Positions 14,584 through 33,341 of a DNA stretch of 64,000 bases are shown here, piece by piece. The translations under genes and the position numbers were made by a program. The DNA is from Methylophaga marina (lineage in GTDB: Bacteria; Pseudomonadota; Gammaproteobacteria; Nitrosococcales; Methylophagaceae), in assembly GCF_030296755.1 (NCBI RefSeq), contig NZ_AP027741.1, forward strand, positions 1,240,001-1,304,000. The letters are read 5' to 3'. Each line of letters opens with the position of its first letter. Within the stretch, counting starts at the first letter, position 1. The notes beneath the pieces are model-generated. The model worked only from the letters and a program-made list of their open reading frames with translations, was not told where the DNA came from and did not search any database.

Positions 14584-16178
14584 ATGTTTACTCGAAATAT
14601 GATAAAAATAGCGCTCGTTTCGGTGATTACCCTACTTGTCGCTTCATGTAGCAGTACACCGGAAAAAGGCGCGGAAGCGTCAACGACTCCGTCAGTTACT
14701 TATTCTAAGGCAAAACAAAAACTGAAACATACGCCTTGGGAACAAGCCTACAACGAATCCTTAGACGACACTGAAAACCCACTCTCCTCAGAAAATCCCC
14801 CCATCACCCTCCCCCTCAAGCACCCACTGACGTCTGGGATCGCATTCGCGATGGCTTCGTGATTTCTGATTACAAAACCTTAGAACCAGATACCGAGCGT
14901 CAACTTCGCTGGTTCATTGATCATCAGGACTATGTCGGCCGAGTGGTAGAACGAGCCAGACCTTATCTCTATCACATTGTTGAAGAAGTCAACAAACGCA
15001 ACATGCCTATGGAGGTTGCGTTGTTACCTGTCGTGGAAAGCGGTTTTAAGCCGATGGCTTACTCACCTAGTCATGCATCCGGTTTATGGCAGTTTATCCC
15101 CGGTACCGGACAGGTTTACGGCTTGGAACAAAATTGGTGGTATGACGGCAGACGTGATGTTGTTAAGTCAACACAGGCCGCCCTCAATTATCTTGAAAAA
15201 CTGCATAATGATTTCGGTGACTGGCAGCTTGCTCTCGCAGCCTATAACTGCGGTGAAGGTACCGTTGGCCGCGCTATTAAGAAGAATCAGGAACAAGGTA
15301 AGCCGACTGATTTCTGGTCACTGGATCTACCAAGAGAAACCTCGGCCTATGTACCTCGCTTAATGGCCGTCAGCCATATGGTGAAATATCCTGAACGCTA
15401 TGAGCTAGAACTTAGCCCAATCGATAACAAGCCTTTCTTTGGGCAAGTTAATGTTGGCTCACAAATCGATCTAGCCATGGCAGCCAAGCTGGCTGGTATC
15501 ACTGAAAAACAAATGCATCAACTCAATCCAGCATTTAATCGCTGGGCAACCGCCCCACATGGCGATCATAAGTTAGTACTGCCGCTGGAAAAAATCCCCA
15601 CATTTAAGGCAGCTCTGGCTAAAACACCAGCATCACAGCGTGTGCAATGGGCTCGCCATGAAATCAAACGCGGTGAATCACTCAGTGTCATTGCCAGCAA
15701 CTATGACACAACTGTTGAAGTGATTAAACAAGCCAACAAGCTGGGTAGCACACAAATTAGGGCAGGCAAAAACTTACTTATCCCAGTGGCATCGCATGAT
15801 GTCAGCCAGCTAGCGTTGAAAAAAGCACAACGGAATCTGTCAGCAGCTAAAACCAAAAAAACGACTTACATTGTTAAAGCCGGTGACACTTGGTGGGATA
15901 TCGCACGGAAAAACAATACCGATGTGCAATCTCTGACTAAACAGAATAAAAAGTCCGCCAGAGATATTCTGCATGCAGGTCAAAAACTCGTTATCACTAC
16001 AACTGCTGAAGATATTAGAAAGTCAGTTAACTATACCATCAAAAATGGCGACTCTCTCTGGGCAATATCACGCAAGTTCAATGTCAGTGTGGCTGATGTG
16101 AAAGAGTGGAATGGTTTAAGTGATCGTTCAACATTACAGCCTGGCCAGAATTTGAAACTGTATATAGACGAAACCTGA
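14584..16178 (+). CDS. mltD: Membrane-bound lytic murein transglycosylase D, split by a -1 frameshift
   Basis: Lipoprotein that cleaves peptidoglycan glycan strands with formation of anhydro-muramic ends. A lipobox (VASCSS, about residue 21) anchors it to the outer membrane. The SLT domain carries the catalytic Glu in VVESGFKPMAYSPSHASGLW. Three LysM repeats follow, starting near HEIKRGESLSVIA, YIVKAGDTWWDIA and YTIKNGDSLWAIS. The frame breaks at the C run 14811-14815; one extra C gives LPPQAPTDVWDRIRDGFVIS and a continuous protein of about 531 residues. It is followed by trmL after 6 bases. Confidence 0.9.
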
Positions 16179-16184
16179 TTCACA

Positions 16185-16655
16185 GTGCTGCACGTTGCTC
16201 TCTACGAGCCCGAGATTCCACCCAACACGGGCAATATTATTCGTTTATGCGCCAACGCTGGCGCCAGTCTTCACCTGATAGAACCACTTGGTTTTGTGAT
16301 TGATGATAAACGTTTACGGCGTGCCGGTCTGGATTATCATGAATTTGCTCATGTCACCGTCCATAAAAACTTTGATGAATTCATAGCATGGAGCGACAGC
16401 AGACGAATTTTTGCCTGCACCACAAAAGCGACACAACATCACCATCAAGTCAGCTACATCGATGAAGACATTTTGTTATTTGGTCCTGAGTCGCGCGGCT
16501 TACCTGATAATGTTTTGAATCAAGTACAAGACAGTCAGAAAATACGCATTCCAATGCTTCCTGATAGCCGAAGTTTGAACCTGTCTAATGCGACGGCCAT
16601 CATCTTATACCAGGCATGGGAACAGCTCGACTTTGCCGGAGCAAAACGGTTCTGA
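16185..16655 (+). CDS. trmL: tRNA (cytidine(34)-2'-O)-methyltransferase
   Basis: Methylates the wobble ribose of leucine tRNAs; SPOUT-fold dimer. The 156 residues match family size. The N-terminus LHVALYEPEIPPNTGNIIRL and the knot motifs LFGPESRGLP and IPMLPDSRSLNLSNATAII are diagnostic. The start is GTG, 6 bases after the mltD stop. A TrmL substrate, tRNA-Leu(TAA), is also in the window at 51385. Confidence 0.95.
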   Translation: MLHVALYEPEIPPNTGNIIRLCANAGASLHLIEPLGFVIDDKRLRRAGLDYHEFAHVTVHKNFDEFIAWSDSRRIFACTTKATQHHHQVSYIDEDILLFGPESRGLPDNVLNQVQDSQKIRIPMLPDSRSLNLSNATAIILYQAWEQLDFAGAKRF

Positions 16656-16924
16656 TCATTGGCCATAAATGTGTTCAAAACCTGAGCCAGTTCAATGTCC
16701 TATTTTCGCATCTACTCTATGATTCACCCTTTTACGGATAGGTGAGTATCATGCTTGTTTAGTGCTAATAGCGCTAAGCTTGTTTGGCTCAGTTGGGTTA
16801 TTATTCACCATTCAATAAAACTTCAGTTATGTGTTATGCGCTATGGAAGGTAAATAACCATGATGTATCAATCATTTTTTTTATGTACTTCACCTAACCT
16901 CACCACGGATTTAGATTGCTACCA

Positions 16925-19900
16925 ATGACAGGCTATCAATTTTTTTGTGCATGCATTCTTAGTTTGCTACTGAGCTTTTCAGTCACAATTCATGCCCAAG
17001 TTACTCAGACAGACGATGACCTGGCGTTAGAAAAAGTAAGCTTGCAACTGAAATGGAAATATCAATTTCAGTTTGCTGGTTATATTGCTGCCGTAGAAAA
17101 AGGCTTTTATAAAGAACAAGGTTTGGACGTTGAGCTACGACCTCGTCAGTCTGAGTTAAACGTCGTTGATGAAGTCGTCAATGACAAAGCTGATTATGGC
17201 ATCGGTGGTATCGGTATTTTGTCTCAATATGCGAATGGTTCTCCAATAAAAGCATTAGCTGCTATCTTTCAGCATGATGCTTTAGTCTTTATGAGCCAAG
17301 CCGAGTCCGGCATTGTCAGCCCATATGAAATGGTGGGTAAACGCGTCATGTTTGATGGTACCAGCGGTAACGATGCCATCTTGAGGACCTTATTGAATGA
17401 TGCCGGCATTCAACTCAAAGATATCAATATTATCCCTCAACAAATGAGTATAAACAGTCTGCTTAATGATGAAGTCGATGTCATTTCAGGCTATATCACC
17501 GATCAGCCCTATGCGTTTTTACAGAAAAAGTTTCCCATCAACATCATCAATCCGCGTAACTACGGGTTTGATTTCTATGGTGATATTTTATTTACCAGCG
17601 ATGATGAGCTGAAAAACTACCCTGGCCGTGCACAACGCATGCTCAAAGCATCACTGAAAGGCTGGCAGTATGCGCTTGAGCACAGTGAGGAAATGATTCA
17701 TATCATCAAAGAAAAATACGGTGCAGAGCAGAGTCTATCTCGACTACGGTTTGAAGCAAGAGAAACAAAGAAGTTGATCTTACCTGAATTAATCCCCCTC
17801 GGAAGCATCGAAACACCTCGCCTTAAACGCATTGCTGATATTTATACTCAACTGGGTGTTACGCCCGCACTTTCTGAAAAGGCGCTCAACCACTTCATAC
17901 ACCAACCTAGTACAACCTTATCACTGACAGAAGCGGAACAAGCCTGGTTGCAGGCACATCCGGTGATTAAAGTCGGTGTAGATAAAAACTTCGCTCCTTA
18001 CGAGTGGGTGAATGATGATGGTGAATATGTCGGTATTGCAGCTGAATATATTAACCTGCTTGAAGAAAGACTCGGCGTTAGATTTGACATCATTTCCGAC
18101 CATAGCTGGGATGAGTTGATGACTATGGCTCAGCAAAATGAACTTGACATGTTGGCATGCTTAAATGAGACGCCAGAGCGAGAACAATACCTCAACTTTA
18201 CCGATCCTTATATTCAAAATCCCGTCGTCATCATTAACACAGATATCAACGGTTATGTTGGCGCACTGAAAAACCTGGCAGGTAAAACGGTTGCCATTGA
18301 AAAAGGTAATTTCAGTAATACCTTATTGAGTGATGACTACCCAGAAATTACCTTACTGTTTACCGACACGCCCAGACAGGCATTGGAAAAAGTGGCTCGG
18401 GGTGAGGCTGATGCTTATATTGGTGATGCAGCCTATGCCAACTATCAAATTAAAAACAATGATCTGATAAACCTTCAATTTGCTGGACAAACACAAGCAC
18501 GTGCCGTCTACCGGATGGGTGTCGTCGAAAACCAACCTGAGTTATTGAGTATCATCAATAAAGTGCTGGGACAGCTCTCTGAAAAAGAAAAAAAGAAATT
18601 GAATCACAATGGCTGGGCATCAAAGTCACTCCCGGCCCTCAATTAAAAACATTAATACAATTCGGCGTTGGTATCCTGCTGTTATTCTTATTATTTGGCT
18701 ACTGGATTCATCGTCTGCGACAGTCCCGCCGTGCTCTTCAGGAAAGTGAAAGTCGGTTAAGTGATGTGCTCAATACCTCACCTGTGCCAGAAATTATTAT
18801 TGATAATCAAGGTAAGGTGACTTATATCAATCAGGCCTTTATTCAGTCATTTGGTTTTACTCAGACTGATATCCCGACATTGGATGATTGGTTATTGAGG
18901 ACCTTTCCTAAACAAGAAACACGTGAACGTTTTATTCAGCAGGCCAACATTTCCACACACAAGCAATACGTATCTTTCAACTTCGAATCTATCGAAACAG
19001 ACCTAGTTTGTATGGATGGTCAACGCCGGGCTGTTATTGCTAACGCACGAAAAGTCAGTAGTGATGCCATCCCTGATACATTGATTATTCTCTACGATAT
19101 TACAGAACGTAAACGTGCTGAAGAAAAACTCAAACTGTCAGGACGGGTATTTACCCAGGCGCATGAAGGTATATTAATCACCGACGCTGATGGATTAATA
19201 GTCGACGTTAACCCGGCGTTTTCAGAGATCACAGGCTACAGCCGCGAAGATGTTCTACATCAGAATCCATCAATATTACGTTCAGATAAACATGATGCTT
19301 TGTATTTTGAAGAGATGTGGCAAGAGCTTCGTCATCAAGGTCACTGGCAAGGAGAAATCTGGAACAAGCGCAAAGATGGTCAGATCTATGCTGAACTATT
19401 AACGATATCAACATTAGTCGATGATTTTGGCGAAACGTTGCATTATCTCGGCATGTTTTCAGACATCACCCAGAGCAAAGAGCAACAACATGCACTGGAA
19501 ATGATGGCGCATTATGATGTGTTAACTCAACTGCCTAACCGCACCCTATTTGCTGACAGGTTCAAACAGGCAATTGCACACAGCAATCGTAATAACAGTT
19601 TATTAGCTGTTGTTTTTCTGGATTTGGATGGTTTCAAACCGGTCAATGATACCTATGGTCATGAAGCAGGTGACCAGTTACTGATTGAGGTCTCAGCCCG
19701 TATCCAGTCATGTATCAGACAAGACGATACCGCCTCGCGTCTTGGTGGCGATGAGTTCGCCTTATTGTTGAACGACGTAAGCAGCGCTGATCACTGTGAA
19801 ACGCTCATCAACCGTATAAGAAATGCCATCGAGCTCCCTTACATCATCGATGACAACAGTATCAGCTGTAGCGCCAGTATTGGTGTAACATTATACCCTC

Positions 19901-21183
19901 TCGATGATGCCGATGCTGACACCTTATTGCGTCATGCCGATCAGGCCATGTATCAAGCCAAAGTCTCAGGTCGTCAGCGTCATCATATGTTTGATATGCA
20001 GCAAGACGAGCAAATTTCCGAAAAGCAGAATCAATTTAAATCAATCGAAGATGCGCTTATATCCGATCAGCTGGTCTTGTTCTATCAGCCAAAAGTGAAT
20101 ATGCGTACAGGTGAAATTATTGGTGCTGAGGCATTGATTCGCTGGCAGCATCCTGAGCAAGGTTTAATCATGCCGGGGGCATTTTTGCCTGCTACGGAAG
20201 GTAGCCCATTGGAAATTAATATCGGCAACTGGGTAATTGAACACGCTATCAAGCAACTTGATGACTGGATTCAACGTGGCTGGTCGCTTGAAATGAGTAT
20301 TAATATTTCATCACGACACTTGCAATGGAATGGCTTTTTTGACCATCTGGATCGTGTGCTTGCCAGGTATCCGAATGTGCCCTCTTATATGATCCAGTTA
20401 GAGATTTTGGAAAGCAGTGTTTTGACAGACATCAACAATATCTCCTCAATTATTAAGACCTGTCGTCATACCCTAGGCCTCAAAATTTCCTTGGATGATT
20501 TTGGTACTGGTTATTCCTCTTTAACACATCTACGTCATCTGCCTGTCGACACCGTTAAAATCGATCAGAGTTTTGTCCGTGATCTCATTGATGACCCCAA
20601 TGACTACACCATCATTGATGGTGTTATCGGCCTCACAGATGCCTTCCATCACCAAGTCATTGCTGAAGGAGTAGAGACAACGGAGCATGGCTTGATGTTA
20701 CTAGCCATGGGCTGTGATTTGGCTCAAGGATATGGCATTGCCTATCCCATGTCAGCGGATGACTGTAATCAATGGATTAGCACTTATCAGCCGAATGTAC
20801 GCTGGATAGATTTGGCCGAGAGAAAACTTGACGCTGAACAAACACTACTTGAGTTGATGGATTTGCAAATAAATTATTGGCTTAATCGGGTTGTCAGCAA
20901 TCTGCAATCGACCTCAGACAAAATTGAGCACTGGCCTTTAATGAACCATAAAAAGTGTCACTTTGGTCTATGGCTGGAACAAGCTAAGAAACAGAACCTG
21001 TTTGATAAAGTCTGGATAGAATCAATGAAACTGGCTTATACCGAGCTCTATCACAATGCAAACAGCCTCAAATACCAGTTTCAGGAAAACCAGCACCGCG
21101 TCAACGATACTGGTATTACTGAATTAAAATCTCATTTTGGAATCATTCAATCACTCTTGAATGCAAAAAAACAAAGTCATTAA
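16925..21183 (+). CDS. Multidomain c-di-GMP sensor (NMT1-SBP3-TM-PAS-PAS-GGDEF-EAL-CZB), split by a -1 frameshift
   Basis: After a signal peptide comes an NMT1/THI5-like domain (LQLKWKYQFQFAGYIAAVEK). A family 3 solute-binding domain follows (VIKVGVDKNFAPYEWVNDDG). One extra A near 18608 restores NHKWLGIKV and a transmembrane segment. Then come two PAS domains, a GGDEF domain with RLGGDEFALL, and an EAL domain with GAEALIRWQHPEQG and KIDQSFVRDL. A C-terminal CZB-like zinc domain has CHFGLWLEQ. Both cyclase and phosphodiesterase motifs look intact. The total is about 1,420 residues. I took the ATG at 16925 because it starts a good signal peptide. Its stop overlaps that of the convergent YVTN gene. 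Confidence 0.88.
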
Positions 21184-22127
21184 TCACCGATAAAACGACC
21201 AAGACTTCTTGGGCCGTCAGGCATCGGCAAATGTTGGACGACTTGCTGTTGTTTAATATCAATCACCGATAAGGTATTGCTGAACCAATTCGTTACATAG
21301 GCATACTGGCTGTCATCTGAAAAAGCGACTGTTTCCGGCATTTCGCCTACTTTGATTTTTGTGACCATTTCTAATGTTTCAGTATCAAACACCCAAACAT
21401 CATTCGTACCTTGGTTAGCCACAAATAACCACTGGTTATCCGGTGTGACCGCAACACCATATGGCGCAGTGCCTGCTTTCAGCGTTTTCACCACCTCATA
21501 GCTCTCACCATCAATGACTGTGATGGTATTATCCTGGATGGCTGTGACAAATATCTGTTTGCTATCAGGACTCACAGCGACGGCATAAGGCGCTTTTCCA
21601 GTCTTCACCTCAGCATATTGGCGCGGCGTATCAGCATCAAGGACCGTTAAAGTATCACTATTGCGGTTAGCCACAAAGATACGTCGAGTTGCATTATCTA
21701 GTGCTAAACCAGCAGGATTCTTACCCACTGACAAGAGATCAACCACTAGCTTCGTTTCAGGATTAATGACCACAACAGCATTACGATGCCAGTCTGAAAC
21801 AAATACCTGATGCTTATCAGAAGGGTCGACCGCAATGGCAAAAGGTTGCCCACCCGTATTAATTTCAGCTAACTTCTTGTTATCTTTGGTATCGATCATT
21901 GTCACCAACCCTTGCTCAGGGTGCGTGACAAATAATTCATGCCGCTTATTATCCAATGAAACACCTACAGGTCCGGTAGTGACATCTACCGTGGCTGTTA
22001 TTTTTTGTGTATCAATATCTAAAACGGTAATTTTATTGGCAGCCTGACTACTGATATAAGCATGTTGAGCTGCTAGTGGCATGGCCACTAGCAATAAACT
22101 CAATGAGAGACCTAAACGCAGCCTCAC
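21180..22127 (-). CDS. Periplasmic seven-bladed YVTN beta-propeller protein
   Basis: 315 residues with a signal peptide ending near AAQHA. Seven YVTN-type strands are visible in order: AYISSQ, LFVTHP, VFVSDW, IFVANR, IFVTAI, LFVANQ and AYVTNW. Each is followed by a VDxxT-type turn and a GxxPxGxA-like motif, so the protein is one closed seven-bladed propeller. This size and layout resembles the propeller proteins found in PQQ-dependent alcohol oxidation operons. It is the last gene of a three-gene minus-strand group with the MxaD-like gene (adjacent, no gap). A role alongside methanol dehydrogenase in the periplasm is an inference from context. Confidence 0.85.
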   Translation of the reverse strand: MRLRLGLSLSLLLVAMPLAAQHAYISSQAANKITVLDIDTQKITATVDVTTGPVGVSLDNKRHELFVTHPEQGLVTMIDTKDNKKLAEINTGGQPFAIAVDPSDKHQVFVSDWHRNAVVVINPETKLVVDLLSVGKNPAGLALDNATRRIFVANRNSDTLTVLDADTPRQYAEVKTGKAPYAVAVSPDSKQIFVTAIQDNTITVIDGESYEVVKTLKAGTAPYGVAVTPDNQWLFVANQGTNDVWVFDTETLEMVTKIKVGEMPETVAFSDDSQYAYVTNWFSNTLSVIDIKQQQVVQHLPMPDGPRSLGRFIGD

Positions 22128-22649
22128 TTATTTCTTTCCTTCAAGAGATTCTTTTAAGCTGCCCATACCGGTTTTAGCAAAGGCTTCCATGGCTTTAACT
22201 GCCGATTCATCATTGTACTGTTCAGGTGGGAAGTTACCTGTGTCAGCACGATAGAAACGCCCCTTCCAGCTCATTTCAGTACCTTTATCCGCTTCCGTGA
22301 GTTCAATGCTGACGGTATAAAAGCTGACTGGAAATGCTTCGATATTCTCCTCCAGCAAGCGATAACTCATATAATGTTTAGCATCATCTTTTTCATCTAG
22401 GCTATCAGTAATTTCACCTTTGCCTTTTATCTTAAGTACTCGTGTTCCTTCTTCAGGTGATGTGACTGACTCAACCATGGGGTGCCAATCTGCTATGGCG
22501 TTAAAGTCTGACACTTTCTTCCAAACTGTCTCAACCGGTGCATCGATCACCATTTTTTCATCAATTTTCTGCGGTGTTGGCCCATGAGCGAGAGCAAGAC
22601 TAGTGACGAATAATTGACTTGCCATGAAGGCGGTTGCCCATAATTTCAT
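22128..22649 (-). CDS. mxaD: MxaD-like periplasmic SRPBCC protein
   Basis: 173 residues with a signal peptide (cleavage near LALAHG). The SRPBCC/START-type fold has DAPVETVWKKVSDFNAIADW and HPMVESV near the start and a long C-terminal helix. MxaD proteins of methylotrophs share this fold and periplasmic location; in Methylorubrum MxaD is reported to aid the methanol dehydrogenase-cytochrome cL interaction. Here the gene lies about 2.5 kb upstream of mxaF on the opposite strand, between a small periplasmic protein and a YVTN propeller. The symbol rests on fold plus context, so orthology is likely but not proven. Confidence 0.72.
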   Translation of the reverse strand: MKLWATAFMASQLFVTSLALAHGPTPQKIDEKMVIDAPVETVWKKVSDFNAIADWHPMVESVTSPEEGTRVLKIKGKGEITDSLDEKDDAKHYMSYRLLEENIEAFPVSFYTVSIELTEADKGTEMSWKGRFYRADTGNFPPEQYNDESAVKAMEAFAKTGMGSLKESLEGKK

Positions 22650-22696
22650 TAAAAATTCCTCTTTAAAATTGAAGTGCTGACTTGTAATGTAGAACG

Positions 22697-23020
22697 TTAT
22701 TTCGGATCGCGGTTGGTATGACCAAGTGTCTCAACATGACCGTTTACAATGCCGAATTGGGTATAACGATAAATTTTGTCTGAGTGAGCCTGCTGCACGA
22801 GATCGTGATAAATCCAAAACTCGATCTTGCCGCTGGAGTTTTCTCTTTTAGAAATAGAATCAGGTTCACCTAACTCCGCTTTGATAAATTCTGGGGTTTT
22901 ACCTGTGAAGTGTTTGAGGAAGGCCATTTCCTCGTAAGGTTTTTGCAGGGTAGCATCAGCAGCATGGCTGATACCTGGAATAAAAAGTAGTAAAGACAGG
23001 AGTAATGGCAAGAGTTTCAT
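22697..23020 (-). CDS. Small periplasmic protein, possible MxaE-type accessory protein
   Basis: 107 residues from the ATG at 23018-23020, which has a GAGGAAG Shine-Dalgarno; the open frame extends further upstream but without a better start. A signal peptide (LLPLLLSLLLFIPGISHAA) is followed by FIKAELGEPDSISKRE and IEFWIYHDLV. This pattern is reminiscent of SmpA/BamE-like folds (GxPd...wxY), though without a lipobox. It is first in the group with the MxaD-like and YVTN genes. The pairing with an MxaD-like gene suggests MxaE, whose function is poorly defined; I leave the symbol empty because sequence recognition is weak. Confidence 0.5.
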   Translation of the reverse strand: MKLLPLLLSLLLFIPGISHAADATLQKPYEEMAFLKHFTGKTPEFIKAELGEPDSISKRENSSGKIEFWIYHDLVQQAHSDKIYRYTQFGIVNGHVETLGHTNRDPK

Positions 23021-23217
23021 GTTCTTCCTCAAAGTGAATAGAAAACTCGACCATCCTACTGAGCATTGTGCCAATACCGTTAGAGACATGTCCTCGTATT
23101 TCAGCAGGACCTTTTCATCTATGTCTGCGTGATTTGCTCCCCATCGTATATCTGCCTATGGGTTAATCTATTTCAGTCCTTCATAATTTTGCTTTTAATT
23201 GTTAATGAACTCGAAAT

Positions 23218-24204
23218 ATGGATGGCCTGCAGCGACAGCTCGACCGCACCAGTGACAATGAGCAACCCAAACGTATCAGACATGACATTGTCTGGGTTAC
23301 AGCACTCTCTTTGGCTACTTACCTTCTGGCCTCATATTTCGATTTGGCTGAGCGCTATATCAACTGGACAGCATTAGGCGAGTTATATCAACTTGATGAG
23401 ATAATTTTTGTGTTGTTGGTTTTCTGTGCCGGGCTCATCTGGTTCAGTAAACGGCGAATATCTGAATTATCACAAGCATTGAGACATAACTTGGCCATGC
23501 AGGCTGAGCTTACGCATAACAATAAAAAAATCCGACAGCTGCTTAACGAAAAACAGTCACTGGTACAACGAATCACGTTGGTTAGAGAGTCTGAACGTGA
23601 TCACTTAGCCTCTGAACTTCATGACATCTTTGGTCAACATCTTGCTGCAATGGATGCCAACCTGACTGTCGCTCTAAACCAGACAAACAACTCAAATCTT
23701 ACATCCATTCTCGAGTCCGTGATGGACAGCACCACGGTATTACGCTCTATTACACGCAATAAGCTACGCCACCTCAAGCCACCCAGCCTCGATAGCATTG
23801 GTCTTAAAGGTGCTATTCGTGAACTGTTATCAGAATGGAGACAATCCTTTTCTGGCACTGACAACATCTCTTTGAATGTACATGATGATGAGCTCCCTAA
23901 ACCTATTGCTTTGACCTTATATCGAGCTCTGCAGGAAGGGTTGAGTAATATTAGTCGACATGCCAATGCAGAAAATGTGTTTATTTACTTACACCAGTTT
24001 CGTGAACCTGAGCATATGTGTATTCAGCTTAGACTGGAAGATGACGGGCTAGGTATGGATACAAACATAGAGAACCAATCCGGACTTGGGCTTGTAAGTA
24101 TTCGAGAACGTTGCGAAGCATTAAGTGGCGAGTTTTATATATCAACACGTCAACCACAGGGAACCACGTTAACTATTACGCTTCCTTATGACCCCATTGT
24201 TTGA
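23218..24204 (+). CDS. NarL-type membrane sensor histidine kinase, likely regulator of mxa genes
   Basis: 328 residues. Two N-terminal transmembrane segments (about 26-44 and 61-79) flank a very short periplasmic loop, so it probably senses at or within the membrane. The HisKA_3 phospho-acceptor His is in RDHLASELHDIFGQHLAAMD. The ATPase domain has RALQEGLSNISRHANAENV, LEDDGLGMD and GLGLVSIRERCEALSG. It is 9 bases upstream of a LuxR-type response regulator, and the pair sits directly upstream of mxaF on the same strand. Methylotrophs use such pairs (MxaY/MxaX, MxaB) to control methanol dehydrogenase; this assignment is from position. Confidence 0.88.
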   Translation: MDGLQRQLDRTSDNEQPKRIRHDIVWVTALSLATYLLASYFDLAERYINWTALGELYQLDEIIFVLLVFCAGLIWFSKRRISELSQALRHNLAMQAELTHNNKKIRQLLNEKQSLVQRITLVRESERDHLASELHDIFGQHLAAMDANLTVALNQTNNSNLTSILESVMDSTTVLRSITRNKLRHLKPPSLDSIGLKGAIRELLSEWRQSFSGTDNISLNVHDDELPKPIALTLYRALQEGLSNISRHANAENVFIYLHQFREPEHMCIQLRLEDDGLGMDTNIENQSGLGLVSIRERCEALSGEFYISTRQPQGTTLTITLPYDPIV

Positions 24205-24213
24205 GTAATTATT

Positions 24214-24858
24214 ATGTCTAAAACTACTATCTTACTAATTGATGACCATGCCATTTTGCGTGATGGTTACCAGCATTTATTAAATTCATCAGGATTTCAT
24301 GTGATTGATCAGGCCAGTAACTCTGAAGAGGGCTACCGTCTTTATGTGACACATAAGCCTGATGTCTGCATTATCGATATCAGTATGCCTGGCGCCGGTG
24401 GCCTCGAATGTATCAGGCGTATTATCGCACGAGACCCACAAGCTAAAATTCTTGTCTGCACAATGCATGATGACTCAACTCTGGCTATGCGGGCAATGGA
24501 TATGGGCGCACGAGGCTATATCACGAAATCCTGTCCTTCTTCTGTGTTAATTGAGGCAGTAAAAACCATTGCAAACCGTGGTCATTATCTCAGTACCGAG
24601 ATTGCTCGCTCCATCGCCATGGAAAAGTTGATTCATGCTGATCAAAAAGTACACTCCTTATCGCACCAGGAATTTGCTGTATTTCGTATGGTCGCTGAGG
24701 GCAAAAGTATCAATGAAATGGCAGATAACCTGGCCTTGGCACCCAAAACCGTATCCAACTACAAAACAAATATGATGCGAAAACTAGGCACCAATAATTT
24801 AGCTGAGATTATTTTTCTGGCTCAAAAAACGGGGTTGATTACTACACCGCCTAATTAA
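24214..24858 (+). CDS. LuxR/NarL-family response regulator, MxaB-like by position
   Basis: 214 residues. The receiver domain has the acidic pair IDDHAILRDGY, phospho-acceptor Asp in VCIIDISMPGAGGLE and the switch Lys in GYITKSCPSS. The C-terminal helix-turn-helix SHQEFAVFRMVAEGKSINEM and LAPKTVSNYKTNMMRKLGTN is standard NarL/LuxR. It is co-transcribed with the upstream kinase (9-base gap) and lies 275 bases upstream of mxaF. It resembles MxaB, the LuxR-type regulator needed for mxa expression in Methylorubrum. The target promoters are not shown by the sequence. Confidence 0.88.
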   Translation: MSKTTILLIDDHAILRDGYQHLLNSSGFHVIDQASNSEEGYRLYVTHKPDVCIIDISMPGAGGLECIRRIIARDPQAKILVCTMHDDSTLAMRAMDMGARGYITKSCPSSVLIEAVKTIANRGHYLSTEIARSIAMEKLIHADQKVHSLSHQEFAVFRMVAEGKSINEMADNLALAPKTVSNYKTNMMRKLGTNNLAEIIFLAQKTGLITTPPN

Positions 24859-25133
24859 AATTTGGCTAGTGAAAAAGTTCATAAACTTTCTTCACATCAC
24901 TCCCTGAGAAAGCAACAAAATATTTATAAACCATTGTTAAATATAATTATTCATAAATAGCATCAAAGCCTCACCGCCGAATTAAGGATAACTTCCCTGA
25001 CCCTTTTAGGTGTCGCTCTCTATCCCCTATCACAGCAAAGATAAGAAGATGAGCTTTGTGCTCAGCCGTGCTTTTTTTACAGCTGATACACAAAGTCAGC
25101 ATTGACTGACTCTCAAAACAAATAGGAGGATAT
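24859..25133 (+). promoter_or_regulatory. mxaF upstream region and leader
   Basis: 275 bases without a gene separate the response regulator from mxaF. The first half is AT-rich (about 24890-24960). A small hairpin, GCTGA ... TCAGC, lies near 25080-25100. An exceptionally strong Shine-Dalgarno AGGAGGA (25124-25130) sits just before the ATG. I find no convincing -35/-10 pair for the housekeeping sigma factor, which fits activator dependence. The mxa promoter must lie here or further upstream. Confidence 0.55.
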
Positions 25134-27016
25134 ATGAGAGAAATGCATCATAGCCGGTGGTCAAAAATCGGTACTGCGCTTGCTGTCTCATCCGCACTCG
25201 GATTGATGTCAAGCATGTCAGTTGCAAATGATAAGTTAGTAGAACTGTCAAAAAGCAATGAAAACTGGGTAATGCAAGGGAAAGACTTCTCAGGCACCCA
25301 CTACAGTACTGCCAAACAAATTAATAAAGATAACGTTAAAAAACTACGTCCATCATGGTCATTCTCAACAGGTGTACTCAACGGTCACGAAGGTGCGCCG
25401 CTTGTTGTAGATGGCACAATGTTCATTCATACACCATTCCCAAATAACACCTTTGCTATCGATCTGGATGAACCAGGTGTGATCAAATGGGAACACAAAC
25501 CAAAACAAGATCCTGCAGCTCGTGCTGTGGCATGTTGTGACGTTGTAAACCGTGGTTTAGCTTACTGGCCAGGTGATGACAAAGCACCAGCCATGATCGT
25601 TAAGAGCTTACTGGATGGTCACGTTGTCGCGTTAAATGCTGAAACAGGTGAAGAATACTGGAAAGTAGAAAACGGTGACATCAGCGTAGGCCAAACAGAA
25701 ACTGCAGCACCATTCGTTGCTAAAGACCTGGTTATCCAAGGTTCTTCTGGTGCGGAATTAGGTGTTCGTGGTTATGTCACTGCTTACGATATTCATACTG
25801 GTGAAATGGTATGGCGTTGGTATGCGACTGGTCCTGACGCAGATGTGGGTCTGGATAAAGACTTCAACAAACATAACCCTCATTATGGTCAAAAAGGTCT
25901 AGGTACATCTACCTGGGAAGATAACGCATGGAAAATCGGTGGTGGTACTAACTGGGGTTGGTACGCTTATGATCCAGATTTAGACATGTTCTATTATGGT
26001 TCAGGTAACCCTGCTCCATGGAACGAAACTATGCGTCCAGGTGATAACAAATGGACAATGACTATTTGGGGTCGTGATCTGGAAACGGGTTTAGCTAAAT
26101 TCGGTTACCAAAAAACACCTCATGATGAGTGGGATTACGCCGGCGTTAACGTCATGATGCTCTCTGAGCAAAAAGACAAAAACGGCAAAATGCGTAAACT
26201 GCTGACTCACCCTGATCGTAACGGTATCGTCTACACACTGGATCGTGAAACGGGTGACTTAGTCTCTGCCAACAAAATGGATGACACGGCCAACTGGGTG
26301 AAAAAGTTGACCTAGAAACAGGTCTACCAATTCGTGACCCTGAATATGGCACACGCATGGGACACCGTTCACGTGATGTATGTCCTTCAGCGATGGGCTT
26401 CCATAATCAGGGTTTCGATTCTTATGATCCTAAACGCGAACTGTTCTACTTAGGTATTAACCACCTATGTATGGATTGGGAACCATTCATGCTTCCATAC
26501 CGTGCAGGTCAGTTCTTCGTTGGTGCCAACGTATGGACATACCCTGGTCCTAAAGGTGATCGTCAAAACGGTATCGGTTCAGGCCAAGTTAAAGCCTACA
26601 ACGCGATTACTGGTGACTTCGCTTGGGAAAAAATGGAGAAATTCTCTGTTTGGGGCGGCACAATGGCGACCGAAGGTGGACTGGTATTCTACGGAACACT
26701 GGATGGCTTTATCAAAGCGCGTGATGCTGACAACGGTAAGTTGTTGTGGAAATTTAAACTTCCATCAGGCGCAATTGGTCACCCAATGACATACACCCAT
26801 GAAGGTACACAATACGTTGCTATCAACTATGGTGTAGGTGGTTGGCCTGCGGTTGGTCTTGTGTTTGACCTGAATGACCCATCAGCTGGTTTAGGTGCAG
26901 TAGGTGCCTTTAAAGAACTGGCGAAAAACACTCAAATGGGTGGTGGTGTCATGGTCTTCGCACTTGATGGTAAGAGCCCATATGACGATGTGAGCTTAGG
27001 TGAATACGGCATGTAA
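25134..27016 (+). CDS. mxaF: Methanol dehydrogenase large subunit, calcium/PQQ type, split by a -1 frameshift
   Basis: Oxidises methanol to formaldehyde in the periplasm with PQQ. A signal peptide ends near SMSVAND. The adjacent Cys pair ([10 protein letters not shown]) forms the PQQ-capping disulfide; the calcium ligand Asn lies in GSGNPAPWN. The catalytic Asp is in [10 protein letters not shown]. Ala follows it at the position where lanthanide XoxF enzymes have a second Asp, so this is the calcium form. One A missing from the run 26301-26305 breaks the frame; adding it gives [20 protein letters not shown] and about 627 residues. The sequence is otherwise intact. The Shine-Dalgarno also allows a start at 25143. 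Confidence 0.95.
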
Positions 27017-27065: not shown

Positions 27066-27091
27066 GGCCAGCAACCAGTTGGTTGCTGGCC
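27066..27091 (+). promoter_or_regulatory. Intercistronic hairpin after mxaF
   Basis: An 11-bp perfect GC-rich stem, 27066-27076 with 27081-27091, has a 4-base loop. No T-tract follows, so it is more likely a 3'-end stabiliser or processing site for mxaF mRNA than a terminator. Confidence 0.65.
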
Positions 27092-27109
27092 TCCATCAAA
27101 GAGACCAAC

Positions 27110-27958
27110 ATGATGAAACGAAGCGTGAAAAAAGCCAAATCAGGTCGTATGTTACCTTCATTTTTGGCACTCATATTAGGCAGTGGCTTAGCCTTTAATG
27201 CACAAGCCAATACCAGCACCCTTAAAGTGTGTGCGGCCAGTGATGAATTGCCCTACTCAAATAAGCAGCAGGAAGGCTTTGAGAATGAACTGGCAAAAAT
27301 TCTAGCGGATACCATGGATCGGGAACTAGAGTTCGTCTGGTCCGATAGAGCAGCCATTTTTCTTGTGACAGAAAAGCTGCTTAAAAATCAATGTGATGTT
27401 GTCATGGGCGTAGACAAAGGTGATCCTCGTGTCGCGACCAGTGACCCATACTACAAGTCTGGCTATGCCTTTATTTATCCAGCAGACAAAGGTTTGGATA
27501 TTGAAAACTGGCAAAGCCCAGCATTAAAAGATATGTCTAAATTTGCCATCGTTCCAGGCAGCCCTTCCGAAGTGATGCTGCGTGAAATTGATAAGTATGA
27601 AGGCAACTTTAACTACACCATGTCCCTAATCGGTTTTAAGTCACGCCGTAACCAGTATGTACGTTACGCACCCGATTTACTGATATCAGAAGTGGTGTCA
27701 GGTAAAGCCGATATTGCTCACATCTGGGCACCAGAAGCCGCCCGTTATGTGAAATCAGCCTCGGTTCCACTAAAGATGGTGGTATCTGAAGAAATTGCAC
27801 CGACCCACGACGGAGAAGGTGTAAGACAACAGTTTGAACAAGCTATCGCCGTACGCAGTGACGATAAAGAACTGTTGAAAGAAATCAATACAGCCCTGCA
27901 TAAAGCTGATCCTAAGATCAAAGCCGTATTGAAAGATGAAGGCATCCCACTCTTATAA
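27110..27958 (+). CDS. mxaJ: Methanol oxidation protein MxaJ (periplasmic solute-binding family)
   Basis: About 282 residues from the ATG at 27110, with a long signal peptide ending near FNAQANTST. The family 3 periplasmic binding fold starts LKVCAASDELPYSNKQQEGF and ends in a typical helical C-terminus. MxaJ is needed for active methanol dehydrogenase; it is proposed to act as a periplasmic chaperone or assembly factor rather than a transporter component. The position directly after mxaF and before mxaG is the conserved mxaFJGI order. Confidence 0.93.
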   Translation: MMKRSVKKAKSGRMLPSFLALILGSGLAFNAQANTSTLKVCAASDELPYSNKQQEGFENELAKILADTMDRELEFVWSDRAAIFLVTEKLLKNQCDVVMGVDKGDPRVATSDPYYKSGYAFIYPADKGLDIENWQSPALKDMSKFAIVPGSPSEVMLREIDKYEGNFNYTMSLIGFKSRRNQYVRYAPDLLISEVVSGKADIAHIWAPEAARYVKSASVPLKMVVSEEIAPTHDGEGVRQQFEQAIAVRSDDKELLKEINTALHKADPKIKAVLKDEGIPLL

Positions 27959-28003
27959 CTCTAATAAAAATACTTTTTGTTACTACAGGAAATTTTTTAA
28001 ATC

Positions 28004-28588
28004 ATGACTAACAAAACATTTTTGCCAAAGAAGATTCGAGGAATCGCTTTACTTACTGTCTCGGTACTCTCCGTGGCAATGATTCCTGTCGCTCAATCTC
28101 AATTGGTTTTCAGAAATACAGTCACAGGTGATGTCCTGGACTTATCTTTTGGCAAGAAAGGTGAAAAGACAGAAGCTGTTGAGCATTTTCTTAATACAGG
28201 TGAAAACCTCTACAACACAGATGAAGAAGCCATCAAGTCTGGTGAAAGCTTATTTATGACTGCATGTTCAGGCTGTCATGGACATCATGCTGAAGGCAAA
28301 TTAGGTCCAGCATTAGGTGATGATTATTACACCTACCCTAAAAATGCTCATGATAAAGGCTTGTTTGAAACCATTTATGGCGGTGCCCGCAGCATGATGG
28401 GACCGCAATATAACAACCTCACTAAAGATGAAATCTTACACATCATGGCCTGGGTAAGAAGTGTTTACTGGGGTTCTGCAGATAAAGCTGAGTGGTTAAC
28501 TGAAGAGCAGAAAGCTAACTTTGAACCAGCAGAAGTGCCAGAAGACTTCAAAGAAGCTATGGATAACTTTAATAAAACTCATCATTAA
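28004..28588 (+). CDS. mxaG: Cytochrome cL, electron acceptor of methanol dehydrogenase
   Basis: Class I cytochrome c in the periplasm that takes electrons from PQQ of MxaFI and passes them to cytochrome cH. 194 residues with a signal peptide (about 1-32). A single haem site CSGCHG (about residue 89) supplies the proximal His. The distal Met is probably in ARSMMGPQYNNL. It has the acidic C-terminal extension typical of cL (WLTEEQKANFEPAEVPEDF). It is the third gene of mxaFJGI. Confidence 0.94.
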   Translation: MTNKTFLPKKIRGIALLTVSVLSVAMIPVAQSQLVFRNTVTGDVLDLSFGKKGEKTEAVEHFLNTGENLYNTDEEAIKSGESLFMTACSGCHGHHAEGKLGPALGDDYYTYPKNAHDKGLFETIYGGARSMMGPQYNNLTKDEILHIMAWVRSVYWGSADKAEWLTEEQKANFEPAEVPEDFKEAMDNFNKTHH

Positions 28589-28596
28589 TTAATGGG

Positions 28597-28625
28597 TGGC
28601 ATGTTGTCATAGTGGCAGCATGCCA
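28597..28625 (+). promoter_or_regulatory. Intercistronic hairpin between mxaG and mxaI
   Basis: A 13-bp stem, 28597-28609 with 28613-28625, has a 3-base loop and only two G-U wobbles. No T-run follows. It sits 9 bases past the mxaG stop and 35 bases before mxaI, so it may protect or process the messenger. Confidence 0.65.
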
Positions 28626-28660
28626 ATTCATTATGTCGTCGCAAAAATAAGGAGAGAAAT

Positions 28661-28933
28661 ATGAAACTAAAAACAATCGCTGTGACTTGTTCAGCCCTGA
28701 TGATGTTATCAGGCGCCAGTGCAGTTATGGCTTATGATGGTACTAAATGTAAAGCACCTGGCGATTGCTGGGAAGCTAAGCCTGGATTCCCAGATAAAAT
28801 CAAAGGTTCTAAGTACGATCCTAAACACAGTGAAAAAGAACTGAACAAACAAGATGCTGCGTTAAAAGCTATGGAAAAACGCAATGCTGAACGTGTTGAA
28901 CAGTTCAAAAAAACAGGTAAATGGGTTTATTAA
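28661..28933 (+). CDS. mxaI: Methanol dehydrogenase small subunit
   Basis: Beta subunit that wraps along MxaF in the alpha2beta2 enzyme. 90 residues with a signal peptide ending near VMAYDG. The mature form begins YDGTKCKAPGDCWEAKPGFP with the Cys pair that makes its disulfide. It continues as the Lys/Glu-rich single helix NKQDAALKAMEKRNAERVEQ. A GGAGAG Shine-Dalgarno precedes the ATG. MxaI marks the calcium enzyme, since XoxF lacks this subunit. A terminator-like hairpin follows directly. Confidence 0.96.
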   Translation: MKLKTIAVTCSALMMLSGASAVMAYDGTKCKAPGDCWEAKPGFPDKIKGSKYDPKHSEKELNKQDAALKAMEKRNAERVEQFKKTGKWVY

Positions 28934-28948
28934 TCCGTTACTGAAGCA

Positions 28949-28985
28949 GACCGGCCTTATTCTTGGGCCGGTCTTTTCTTTTTCT
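28949..28985 (+). terminator. Intrinsic terminator or attenuator between mxaI and mxaR
   Basis: GACCGGCC (28949-28956) pairs perfectly with GGCCGGTC (28966-28973) and is followed by TTTTCTTTTTCTT. This is a classical Rho-independent terminator, 15 bases past mxaI. Since mxaR to mxaL follow without another obvious promoter, partial read-through would separate high expression of the enzyme subunits from low expression of the maturation genes. Confidence 0.85.
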
Positions 28986-29001
28986 TCCATGTGAAACCAC
29001 T

Positions 29002-30036
29002 ATGAACCAGCTATCAAATACATCAACGATAGCGATGTCAGATTGGCATGCGCTTATTCGTCAGATGGAAACCAGCATCAATAACACGATTCTCGGTCAG
29101 GAACACATTGTCAGATTAATGACCATTGCCACCCTGTCCAGAGGGCATATCCTGCTTGAAGGTGATGTCGGTGTCGGTAAAACGACCTTATTGAAAACGG
29201 TAGCCGAATGTCTGGGTGGTAACTTTGAACGGATTGAAGGCACCATCGATCTGATGCCGCACGATCTCGTTTACTACACCTATATTGCCGAAAATGGTAA
29301 ACCAGGCGTGAGTTCAGGACCGGTTCTGAAACATGGCGATGAACTCTCTATCTTCTTTTTCAATGAGATTAACCGAGCACGGCCACAAGTCCACTCTTTA
29401 TTATTAAGAATCATGGCTGAACGCAGCGTGCATGCATTTAACCAAACACACTATTTCCCTCATTTGCAGGTGTTTGCTGACCGTAATCGTATTGAAAAAG
29501 ATGAAACCTTTGAGCTGCCTGCAGCGGCACGTGACCGTTTTATGATGGAACTGCATGTCGAGCAGCCAAAGTCAGAAACACAACTGAAAGATCTGATGTT
29601 CAATCCTCGTTTTCATGATGCTGACAAACTGGTTGACTCTGCTGATAAAGCAGTCGTACCGTTTCAGCAGTTGAATGATATTGCGGTTGCCATTCAAGAG
29701 CATGTTCACACCAGTGAAAAAGTGCAGGACTATGGCTATCATCTTTGCCGCGCTCTGCGTGAACCGGCTGAATATGGCATTCAAATCACCGATGTGGATA
29801 CCAACAATATGATCCGTGGTGGTATGGGACCACGCGGTATTAGTTATCTGGCTCGTGGAGCCAAAGTTAATGCTTGGCTGAATGGGCGTGATGCGCTTTT
29901 GCCAGAAGATTTCCATATGATCATCCGGCAGATAGCCAAACATCGATTATTCCTGAACCCTGTCTATGACTATAACCGTGATGATATTGTTGAATCACTT
30001 ATCACGGCAGCGTTGAATACCATTCAATCGCCATGA
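29002..30036 (+). CDS. mxaR: MoxR-type AAA ATPase of the methanol dehydrogenase maturation set
   Basis: 344 residues from the ATG at 29002; the frame extends upstream but runs through the terminator. Walker A is LLEGDVGVGKTTLLKTV and Walker B is LSIFFFNEINRARPQ, followed by a sensor region and a helical C-terminal lid. MoxR ATPases work with VWA-domain proteins as metal-insertion or assembly chaperones. Here mxaS, mxaC and mxaL provide the partners. MxaRSACKL is linked to calcium insertion into the apo-enzyme. The start of mxaS overlaps its stop by 4 bases. Confidence 0.94.
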   Translation: MNQLSNTSTIAMSDWHALIRQMETSINNTILGQEHIVRLMTIATLSRGHILLEGDVGVGKTTLLKTVAECLGGNFERIEGTIDLMPHDLVYYTYIAENGKPGVSSGPVLKHGDELSIFFFNEINRARPQVHSLLLRIMAERSVHAFNQTHYFPHLQVFADRNRIEKDETFELPAAARDRFMMELHVEQPKSETQLKDLMFNPRFHDADKLVDSADKAVVPFQQLNDIAVAIQEHVHTSEKVQDYGYHLCRALREPAEYGIQITDVDTNNMIRGGMGPRGISYLARGAKVNAWLNGRDALLPEDFHMIIRQIAKHRLFLNPVYDYNRDDIVESLITAALNTIQSP

Positions 30037-30839
30037 ATCAAACCTTTGATTACAAAACCACTGGCTTGATCAGTGGCTTGATGCTGGGCTCTCATAAAAG
30101 CCGGCAGCGTGGTACAGGATCGGATTTCTATAAGAAATCATTATTTTTAGATGAACCAGATACGTCACGTTTGGATTTAAATGCCAGCCTGACTGATCCG
30201 TTTGAGTCCCTGCATGTCAAAAGTTACCGACAACGCAGCAAAATCGATGTGATATTACTTATCGATGGCTCATCCTCGATGCTTTATGGCGAGAAAGCGA
30301 CCTTAATGCATCACGTGTATGAGAGCACCAAAGCCTCTGTCGAGGCCGCTAATGACCGTTTTTCATGTTATCTGCTCAAAGAAAAACTGATTAAGCTGGG
30401 TGATGCGGATGCTCTGACCACAGAATTAACTAACCTCCAGCCCGAGTCTAATCAGGCTGAAGCCACTCAACAAGTTTTTCCGATCTTGCCTGGCAAGCCG
30501 GCACTGGTATTTTTAGTCTCTGATTTTCACTGGCCGGAAACACAATTGCAGTCATTGCTGACTGTATTGTCAGCCCATTTGGTGGTGCCTATGGTGTTAT
30601 GGCAATCCAAAGAATTTCTCGACTTTCCATTATGGCGATTTGTCGAGTTGACTGATCTTGAAACAGGAGCCAGTTCTCTAGTATTTATCACCCGCGATCA
30701 AAAACAAAAAATTCAGCAGCAATATGACGATCGTAAAACCTATCTCACACAACAGTTTCGTCGATTTAATCAACATCCCTTTTGGTTGATTGATCACTAT
30801 GATGCCAGACAAATGAGTCGATACTTTTCGATGCAGTAG
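30033..30839 (+). CDS. mxaS: MxaS, von Willebrand A-like/DUF58-type protein
   Basis: 268 residues without signal peptide or clear transmembrane segment. The N-terminal region GSHKSRQRGTGSDFYKKSL matches the DUF58-like start that normally follows MoxR genes. The VWA core has the MIDAS-like motif VILLIDGSSSMLYGEKATL and later VFLVSDFHWPET. It overlaps the mxaR stop, and mxaA follows after 8 bases. It is expected to work in the cytoplasm with MxaR on insertion of calcium into methanol dehydrogenase, or on signalling for that step. Confidence 0.9.
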   Translation: MNQTFDYKTTGLISGLMLGSHKSRQRGTGSDFYKKSLFLDEPDTSRLDLNASLTDPFESLHVKSYRQRSKIDVILLIDGSSSMLYGEKATLMHHVYESTKASVEAANDRFSCYLLKEKLIKLGDADALTTELTNLQPESNQAEATQQVFPILPGKPALVFLVSDFHWPETQLQSLLTVLSAHLVVPMVLWQSKEFLDFPLWRFVELTDLETGASSLVFITRDQKQKIQQQYDDRKTYLTQQFRRFNQHPFWLIDHYDARQMSRYFSMQ

Positions 30840-30847
30840 GAACCATT

Positions 30848-31789
30848 ATGAAGTTTTTTAACACCATTTCACTGCTTTTAGGCTTATTTCTGCTTTCTGC
30901 TATCTGCTCTGCAAAGCCTCATATTCCAGGCCAACTTATCAAAATGGATCAAGGACGAAGTTACGGCTTGGTGGTTGGCGATATCATTGAACATCAATAT
31001 CTGATCGCTATCGATACAGCGTATTCTCTGTCACCCTCATCTCTTCCCGTTGAGGGTGAATTAACCTACTGGCTTGATTTGAATAGCGTCGATATGACCT
31101 CCGATCAACGGGGAGCAAAAAAGCTCTATCATCTTACCCTTCGCTATCAAACTTTTTACGCGCCACTTGATGTCCGTAAACTACTTATTCCTGAACAACA
31201 GTTAGTATTCACTGACAATTCAAATCAACGGTTTGAAATATCACTACCCGAATGGTACTTCACTATGTCGCCAATAAAAGAAGTTGTTTCAAGTGGTGTG
31301 GGTAATGATGATGGTAGTCATGGTTTTATGAAGCCCGATATCGCCCCCAGAACGCATTCACTTTCACGCTATCAATCGCCCATCATCATTTATGCCAGTT
31401 TATCTGTGATAGCTTTGCTTATCTGGGCAGCGCTCGCAGGGTTATTACCCAAGTTGAGTACTTCACCTTTTCACAAGGCTAAGCGTCAAATCAAACGCAT
31501 CAAACGCCAAAAAAATATAACGTCTGAACAGGTGCAACAGGGCATGCAAGCCATGCATGATGCGTTGAATACGCGGGCCAAACAGACCTTGTTTGCCTCA
31601 CAAATTGATGACTTTATTCATCGACACCCACAATTTAATGAAAGTCGTGGGCAAATTGAAGATTTCTTTCAGCAATCAAGAAGCGTTTTTTTCTTTGATA
31701 AAGAAGCTAAACCCACTATCTTGATGGATTGTATCCGTCTATGCGACAGACTCGCGGCCGCTGATAAAGTCGTGCAGAGTAACTCATGA
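30848..31789 (+). CDS. mxaA: MxaA, membrane-anchored methanol dehydrogenase maturation protein
   Basis: 313 residues. A signal peptide (FFNTISLLLGLFLLSAICSA) is followed by a periplasmic beta domain (about 25-150). A transmembrane segment (about 180-200, IIIYASLSVIALLIWAALAG) and a charged cytoplasmic helical tail (about 210-310) complete it. Mutants in mxaA of other methylotrophs make enzyme lacking calcium. The position between mxaS and mxaC, with a 4-base overlap into mxaC, is the conserved order. Assignment rests on architecture plus synteny. Confidence 0.87.
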   Translation: MKFFNTISLLLGLFLLSAICSAKPHIPGQLIKMDQGRSYGLVVGDIIEHQYLIAIDTAYSLSPSSLPVEGELTYWLDLNSVDMTSDQRGAKKLYHLTLRYQTFYAPLDVRKLLIPEQQLVFTDNSNQRFEISLPEWYFTMSPIKEVVSSGVGNDDGSHGFMKPDIAPRTHSLSRYQSPIIIYASLSVIALLIWAALAGLLPKLSTSPFHKAKRQIKRIKRQKNITSEQVQQGMQAMHDALNTRAKQTLFASQIDDFIHRHPQFNESRGQIEDFFQQSRSVFFFDKEAKPTILMDCIRLCDRLAAADKVVQSNS

Positions 31790-32766: not shown

Positions 32767-33332
32767 TGTTGCGTCGTCGTTATATACAACATCTTATGCT
32801 GGTCATTAGTTTAATTTTTCTCAGTTTACTGAGTCTGCAAATATTGGAAAGACAGCATCAAAAAGAGATTAACGAGGCCATACAACTTTTACAGTCTCCT
32901 CGCTTGGTAGAGATGAATGAAATTGATCTGACAGAGCCTGAATTACAGTTTGCCTATGCCCATCATTTGCAACAGCGAGGCATGTTTGAAGACGCGGTTG
33001 ATGCCTATGGTAAAGCCGAACGTATGAGCTCTCCTGCCATGCTGAAACTGGTTTATTACAATATGGGGAATCTCTATCTAGAGCAGGCGATTGAGACAGC
33101 AGAGAAGATGGGAATTGATCGTGCCACAGCACTGGCCGATGTTGCTAAAGATCTCTATAAATCAGCATTAAAAAATGATCCTGAGTTCTGGGCAGCAAAA
33201 TACAACTATGAAGCAGCGCAGCGACTTTCTCGTGATTTACCTCTTGGTGATTTACAAGAGTCAGGTGAAGCACAAGAAAGCTCCGAAGAATTATGGTCAG
33301 CCATGCCTGGCTTCCCCCTAGGTTTGCCTTAG
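32763..33332 (+). CDS. mxaK: MxaK
   Basis: 189 residues from the ATG at 32763, which overlaps the mxaC stop. The frame is open 23 codons further upstream, but that would run inside mxaC. It has an N-terminal transmembrane anchor (about 8-27), then a helical, TPR-like periplasmic part with FAYAHHLQQRGMFEDAVDAY and YYNMGNLYLEQAIETAEKMG. TPR-type proteins pair with VWA proteins in many MoxR operons, which suits its place between mxaC and mxaL. Confidence 0.88.
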   Translation: MMLRRRYIQHLMLVISLIFLSLLSLQILERQHQKEINEAIQLLQSPRLVEMNEIDLTEPELQFAYAHHLQQRGMFEDAVDAYGKAERMSSPAMLKLVYYNMGNLYLEQAIETAEKMGIDRATALADVAKDLYKSALKNDPEFWAAKYNYEAAQRLSRDLPLGDLQESGEAQESSEELWSAMPGFPLGLP

Positions 33333-33341
33333 GTTGTTGTT

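Follow-up and report, generated by a model that had tools for sequence, protein, structure and literature searches.

In a 64,000-nucleotide stretch of the 3.107-Mb, Methylophaga-type genome of Methylophaga marina (contig NZ_AP027741.1, positions 1,240,001 to 1,304,000; hereafter the window, whose own coordinates are used below unless stated otherwise), the mxa operon for the Ca-type methanol dehydrogenase (MDH) is accompanied by a small minus-strand unit. It encodes a small protein, an MxaD-like SRPBCC protein and a YVTN β-propeller, and diverges from a kinase/NarL-type regulator pair that leads into mxaF, an arrangement which a first, sequence-only reading of this DNA had described and which was borne out by our analysis. 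The propeller is very probably MxaE, and the SRPBCC protein MxaD, of the classical mxa operon. We consider it rather probable that the two genes form a divergent unit switched on together with mxaF, that their products would work as a redox-inactive helper pair of the enzyme, and that a second such pair found elsewhere in the genome would serve the lanthanide enzyme XoxF. What is new here is the Methylophaga setting: mxaD-mxaE as a divergent unit behind a small protein, with a promoter-like core in common with mxaF. The features concerned are the following:

21180-22127, minus strand: very probable mxaE, a seven-bladed YVTN propeller of 315 amino acids (aa) with a signal-peptide-like start (open reading frame (ORF), profiles, trees, synteny, structure model)
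22128-22649, minus strand: very probable mxaD, an SRPBCC protein of 173 aa with a signal-peptide-like start (ORF; Polyketide_cyc2, 87 bits; tree)
22697-23020, minus strand: small protein of 107 aa with a signal-peptide-like start, without Pfam or NCBIfam family, weakly resembling BamE/OsmE/BLIP-like folds
23080-23109, minus strand: promoter-like core TCC[CT]-N20/21-CTCTA[AT], facing the small protein gene, mxaD and mxaE (pattern comparison)
23218-24204, plus strand: sensor histidine kinase (HisKA_3/HATPase_c), MxaY-like by position and type only
24214-24858, plus strand: NarL/FixJ-type response regulator (receiver and GerE domains, LuxR/NarL type), MxaX-like by position and type only
24994-25023, plus strand: promoter-like core TCC[CT]-N20/21-CTCTA[AT], upstream of mxaF (pattern comparison)
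25134-27016, plus strand: mxaF, large subunit of the Ca-type MDH, frame broken at ~26301 (ORF, profile)
27083-34297, plus strand: rest of the mxa operon, with mxaJ starting at 27083, mxaG at 28004, mxaI at 28661, mxaR at 28963, mxaS at 30033, mxaA at 30848, mxaC at 31786 and mxaK at 32694, then mxaL (frame broken at ~33494) to 34297

Within the operon, mxaJ and mxaG were named by NCBIfam equivalogs; for mxaI, mxaR, mxaS, mxaA, mxaC, mxaK and mxaL the names are assumed from gene order. The signal-peptide-like starts of the propeller, MxaD and the small protein were read by eye. The GTG start of mxaE directly abuts the end of mxaD on the same strand (22128/22127). The ORF of the small protein spans 22697-23089, and we prefer the ATG at 23020 as its likelier start because it gives a signal-peptide-like start and is aligned in closer relatives too. 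Among 18 propeller-bearing contigs from sister genomes, 15 show the small protein, mxaD and the propeller diverging from the kinase and regulator; in the other three there is a contig end nearby (two) or a transposase-like ORF at that place (one). The arrangement is therefore not due to chance.

Identity and descent of the propeller and its SRPBCC neighbour

The propeller matched the YVTN repeat model TIGR02276 in seven stretches as well as a YncE-like Pfam profile, and its structure model displayed 27 strands in about seven four-stranded blades, with a mean predicted local distance difference test score (pLDDT) of 92.7. Among the structural matches of this model, an archaeal surface-layer protein came first, through its YVTN domain; next came Lp49, YncE and hydrazine synthase beta. 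Such matches point to the predicted fold, not to a function. Apart from the repeat model, the highest-scoring named propeller subfamily was TIGR03866 (pyrroloquinoline quinone (PQQ)-dependent catabolism-associated), yet its score of 184.4 bits lies under the curated cut-off of 287.3, and the YncE equivalog NF052280 (125.3 bits, cut-off 400) was rejected likewise. When the MxaD profile was searched against the PDB, TAL-effector chains matched on a 23-residue stretch near the N-terminus, which we took as chance.

Gene order carries the identification as MxaE. We surveyed the best 80 of 328 mxaI loci, a sample that leans towards relatives of the Methylophaga MxaI. The propeller directly follows mxaD on the same strand in 50 of the 80, and in 39 of these 50 mxaD in turn directly follows mxaL (operon-type loci). 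No propeller above 100 bits occurs without mxaD among the 80. Neither gene was seen in eight loci; seven of them end too early, and in the eighth (L198) the region following mxaL is covered and contains neither. In another locus (L205), a LutB-like propeller lies far from its mxaD. Methylorubrum thiocyanatum has the order mxaL, mxaD, propeller, small exported protein, response regulator. In M. extorquens AM1, the order by locus tag is mxaL, mxaD, mxaE, mxaH, mxaB (PMC6414531), and the published operon order is mxaFJGIRSACKLDEHB. This agreement, together with the synteny of the mxaI loci, argues that the window propeller is very probably MxaE. It had been regarded, from the sequence alone, as lying outside the classical mxa set, a placement that we abandon: the mxaE place in the published order is taken by a propeller, and the window protein is a member of the mxa-linked clade described below. 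Its own gene, on the opposite strand and upstream of the kinase, stands outside the place downstream of mxaL that mxaE holds in the operon-type loci. The literature used in this work, consulted in part, is PMC9291206, PMC6839425, PMC6414531, PMC7391723, PMC6548844 and PMC5018670.

Phylogenetic analysis agreed with this placement. All trees were made from chosen rows by a quick method without bootstraps, with supports from the Shimodaira-Hasegawa-like approximate likelihood ratio test (SH-aLRT). The mxa-linked propellers, including that of the window, formed one clade in a tree of 53 rows which leaves out the long-branched L133, L153, L189 and L203 (SH-aLRT 95.7) and in one of 64 rows which leaves out those four plus L116, L123, L132, L197, L209 and L221 (SH-aLRT 99.0). 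The other clade of the propeller tree comprises a group that we label LutB-like; MxaE and LutB-like rows are split with an SH-aLRT of 100, and we rejected a LutB-like identity for the window propeller. An origin of the latter as a recent copy, within the family of Methylophaga, of the second pair described below was rejected as well (approximately unbiased test, p-AU 0.0006). In a tree of 52 of the MxaD hits, the window MxaD belongs to an mxa-linked clade (SH-aLRT 99.7), and its origin by local duplication in the family was rejected (p-AU 0.0014). MxaE appears to share the history of MxaD.

Promoter-like core and occurrence of the divergent unit

We compared the regions upstream of mxaF and upstream of the small protein-mxaD-mxaE unit in 10 Methylophaga genomes. 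The motif CTCTA[AT] was present in the direction of transcription in all 10 of each, compared with means of 1.7 and 1.0 of 10 (highest 7 and 5) in shuffled controls. Its extended form, the core TCC[CT]-N20/21-CTCTA[AT], was also found at each site in 10/10 genomes and on the strand facing the kinase in none. In the window, this core matches only twice in 128,000 strand-bases, before mxaF and before the unit, and three matches on the two strands were obtained with a relaxed version (TCC alone at the start). A survey of 76 mxa loci detected it upstream of mxaF in 14, which all come from Methylophaga or closely related Gammaproteobacteria; the other 62 lack it there. Of the 14 loci, 10 carry it facing the divergent unit as well. 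Sigma-70-type promoters were unsupported: the region 20900-25400 contains 5 such sites, fewer than the mean of 10.8 in shuffled sequence.

Published expression data agree with a link between these genes, as far as the available parts of the sources tell: upon lanthanum addition, log2 changes in AM1 were -4.9 for mxaE, -6.2 for mxaD and -8.0 for mxaF (PMC6414531), and the MxaE protein of Methylocella silvestris, like AM1 an alphaproteobacterium, changed by a log2 of -2.4 on methanol. Judging from the upstream sequences, the unit would most likely be switched on together with mxaF through a common promoter element in Methylophaga. This would make the core a candidate target of the regulator that governs the Ca/lanthanide switch.

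The distribution of these genes was examined in 58 genomes, 23 of the genus and 35 others. An mxa-type propeller (40-100% identity) occurs in 19 of the 23 genus genomes, and no propeller at that identity was found among the other 35; mxaI is present in 14 of the 58, and 16 have the small protein. All four genus genomes that have no mxa-type propeller (68-99% complete) are also without mxaI. Five genomes with the propeller and without mxaI are incomplete or fragmented: mxaF lies on the same contig in two, the kinase and regulator in one, and a contig end in one. In the fifth (G019, 85% complete, no mxaI found), mxaD-mxaE stand beside a transposase-like ORF (L116, contig C4, 13073-15467) with no mxa genes in 20 kb; it is possible that the operon was lost here and the helper pair left behind. 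That the unit is tied to methanol dehydrogenase, as the sequence-only reading had proposed, is thus sustained by the co-occurrence with mxa in the genus, the published fall of mxaE with mxaF on lanthanum and the common promoter-like core.

The small protein has a more restricted distribution: we found it in 13 of the 80 mxaI loci, all gammaproteobacterial by title (directly before mxaF in L164 and L173), and every occurrence in the genomes and loci searched is gammaproteobacterial and adjoins mxa genes or their kinase. The folded part of its structure model is confident (mean pLDDT 84.2). Its resemblance to BamE/OsmE/BLIP-like folds is weak, with no Foldseek match under E 0.001; there was no PDB sequence match under E 0.5.

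Two genes of the window operon deserve a remark. The frames of mxaF (~26301) and mxaL (~33494) are each broken by a one-base deletion, and both genes are intact in relatives, including a contig 96.3% identical to the window (L138), compared with which two further bases are absent at 34515 and 38289. Sequence errors seem to us a likelier cause of these deletions than decay. The region on the other side of the unit (16916-21183) encodes a two-domain solute-binding-like protein and a PAS-GGDEF-EAL protein. These genes border the unit in the closest relatives as well; in several more distant relatives, they are located downstream of mxaL.

A second MxaD-propeller pair apart from mxa

The same genome contains a second SRPBCC-propeller pair (genome positions ~1877709-1879218), whose members are 38% and 32% identical to those of the window. 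It lies between mla-type and rarA-type genes (names given by eye) in 15 loci from 15 genomes of the family. Among 12 family genomes of other genera, none of which has mxaI, the pair was present in all 8 with a relative of PQQ-dependent MDH (matches with E up to 1e-60; in G030 at only 43-48% identity) and in none of the 4 without (Fisher ~0.002, worked by hand and not corrected for kinship). A propeller of this pair type was also found outside the mxa locus in 14 of 16 genomes reached via mxaI loci. One or two MxaD homologues adjoin all 15 pair-type propellers fetched from other genomes, and an xoxF-like gene lies within 4 kb of three of these 15. The sequence-only reading held that a propeller common in relatives without mxa genes would speak against its role; this is what we found for the paralogous propeller (~29-34% identical, with its own MxaD homologue), not for that of the window.

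In M. thiocyanatum, the second pair lies ~7 kb from a LutB-like propeller. An MxaD homologue of AM1, META1p1771, is placed a few locus tags from lutA-lutB in the consulted part of PMC7391723, which reports slower growth on methanol plus La for a mutant lacking it; the two regions would correspond to the same locus. We see even chances that MxaD and MxaE constitute one module duplicated as a pair, with one copy for MxaFI (Ca) and the other for XoxF (lanthanide). If so, MxaE would fill the place of a partner that MxaD has been missing in both systems, and the propeller apart from mxa would be an unrecognised Xox accessory.

Variants of this organization were also observed. Two tandem MxaD homologues precede the non-mxa propeller in seven Methylocystis-type genomes and M. 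thiocyanatum (L227, L228, L235-L240). A third MxaD homologue, without propeller (L120, 8554-9123; ~958553 in G000), closely precedes a TonB-receptor-like ORF, with genes resembling those for sulfate assimilation nearby (names given by eye).

Possible roles of the pair and comparison with known systems

The three proteins encoded by the unit do not contain a single cysteine and, therefore, have neither haem c nor a disulfide redox site; in particular, MxaE cannot carry haem c. In the mechanism that we favour, mxaD-mxaE would constitute in Methylophaga a separate unit divergent from the two-component system of the operon, with a small exported protein in front, and MxaD and MxaE, as periplasmic partners without redox activity of their own, would jointly assist the PQQ methanol dehydrogenase, helping it either to mature or to engage productively with its cytochrome; the second pair might do likewise for the lanthanide (XoxF) enzymes. 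MxaD is cited as stimulating the interaction between MxaFI and cytochrome cL (PMC7391723, consulted in part). Of the two roles suggested from the sequence alone, contact between enzyme and cytochrome hence stays plausible through MxaD, as cited, while we found nothing for PQQ handling in particular. Text searches returned no literature joining mxaD with a β-propeller or SRPBCC with methanol dehydrogenase, and the consulted parts of the methylotroph literature that uses the name MxaE describe no fold or function for it. If seen as encoding a seven-bladed propeller that accompanies MxaD and has a counterpart in a parallel pair outside mxa, this orphan gene would become a testable partner of MxaD.

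Several observations weigh against this interpretation. The identification of MxaE relies on the gene order of a close relative, M. thiocyanatum, as a stand-in for META1p4527 of AM1, and the parts of the literature examined contain no experiments on MxaE. In our first propeller tree (57 rows, with the four long-branched ones kept), the mxa-linked propellers were not one clade. In 22 of the 80 mxaI loci (Methylocystis or Methylocystaceae by title in 14), mxaD is present but has no propeller next to it; therefore, MxaE need not be beside mxa, and a pair-type propeller is present elsewhere in 11 of the 13 tested genomes of these 22 and absent in two. Concerning the promoter-like core, its pattern was chosen after sight of the sequences, and matrices performed poorly: when built from either promoter in the nine other genomes, they did not place the other site among the top 8 of the window; the unit's matrix from the four most distant genomes ranked the mxaF site 8 and missed its own, and a joint matrix from these four found the mxaF site alone. 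At the whole-genome scale, the only mismatch-free match of a stricter pattern was the mxaF site; with one mismatch, three other places matched, the same number as for a reversed control. As for the second pair, its co-occurrence with the dehydrogenase breaks outside the family, where one genome has XoxF at 70% identity and no pair (G038), another XoxF pieces and a lone 30% propeller (G039) and a third XoxF at 64% with the propeller and an MxaD-like gene 18 kb apart (G050); an adjacent pair coexists with a 34% dehydrogenase in G047, and G049 and G056 have 35-38% dehydrogenases and no pair. Conversely, two genus genomes (G001 and G010, 55% and 68% complete) hold pair members without any XoxF match.

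The main rival to a helper pair in maturation or docking is a metal role in the manner of LutB. By analogy with LutB and PedA2, described in the accessible parts of the literature as exported or YVTN proteins of lanthanide-uptake clusters, MxaE might bind or present Ca2+ during its insertion into MxaF. The LutB-like group is indeed the other clade of the propeller tree, and three of its members stand beside ABC-ATPase genes; the full support for the split between the two groups and the position of MxaE next to MxaD, with no transporter, make this unlikely in our view. It appears more doubtful still that the unit is regulatory, its three exported proteins sensing methanol or metal for the adjacent kinase. 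The divergence conserved in the sister contigs would fit such a function, as would a Methylophaga metagenome-assembled genome (L154) in which the block was relocated behind mxaL without loss of the divergence between the unit and its kinase/regulator pair. Among the 11 pair loci that are not of operon type, 10 have a kinase match at most 3 kb from the propeller, but only 5 of the 39 operon-type loci do, so that the link with the kinase is not general. The moved block of L154 occupies 15600-19300, and another, weaker kinase/regulator pair precedes its mxaF. Equally improbable is an accessory set from outside classical mxa, recruited in Methylophaga to handle PQQ or to help the enzyme contact its cytochrome: the signal-peptide-like proteins encoded beside the operon and the cited effect of MxaD would suit it, but in 39 of the 80 loci mxaD and the propeller are part of the operon, downstream of mxaL, the local-duplication tree was rejected, and only the small protein fits, which is also present in the non-Methylophaga gammaproteobacterial mxa loci L143, L164 and L173.

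Returning to the helper-pair interpretation, its components can be compared with three known systems. Like MxaE, LutB and PedA2 are exported propellers linked to PQQ alcohol dehydrogenases; unlike it, the LutB-like propellers form a separate clade and are found beside ABC-ATPase genes in the three fetched places, not beside MxaD. The kinase and regulator of the window resemble MxaY and MxaX of Paracoccus denitrificans, likewise a HisKA_3 kinase and a LuxR-type regulator beside mxaF, a likeness of position and type only. According to the consulted part of PMC5018670, MxaX is required for mxaF expression in Paracoccus, where the pair is located upstream of and divergent from mxaF, whereas that of the window has the same direction as mxaF. 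Finally, mxaD and mxaE are likewise adjacent in M. extorquens, D before E, and belong to the same families by tree and profile in M. thiocyanatum. Unlike in M. extorquens, the Methylophaga pair lies outside the operon, on the opposite strand and upstream of the kinase and regulator, with a small protein in front and nothing resembling mxaH or mxaB next to it.

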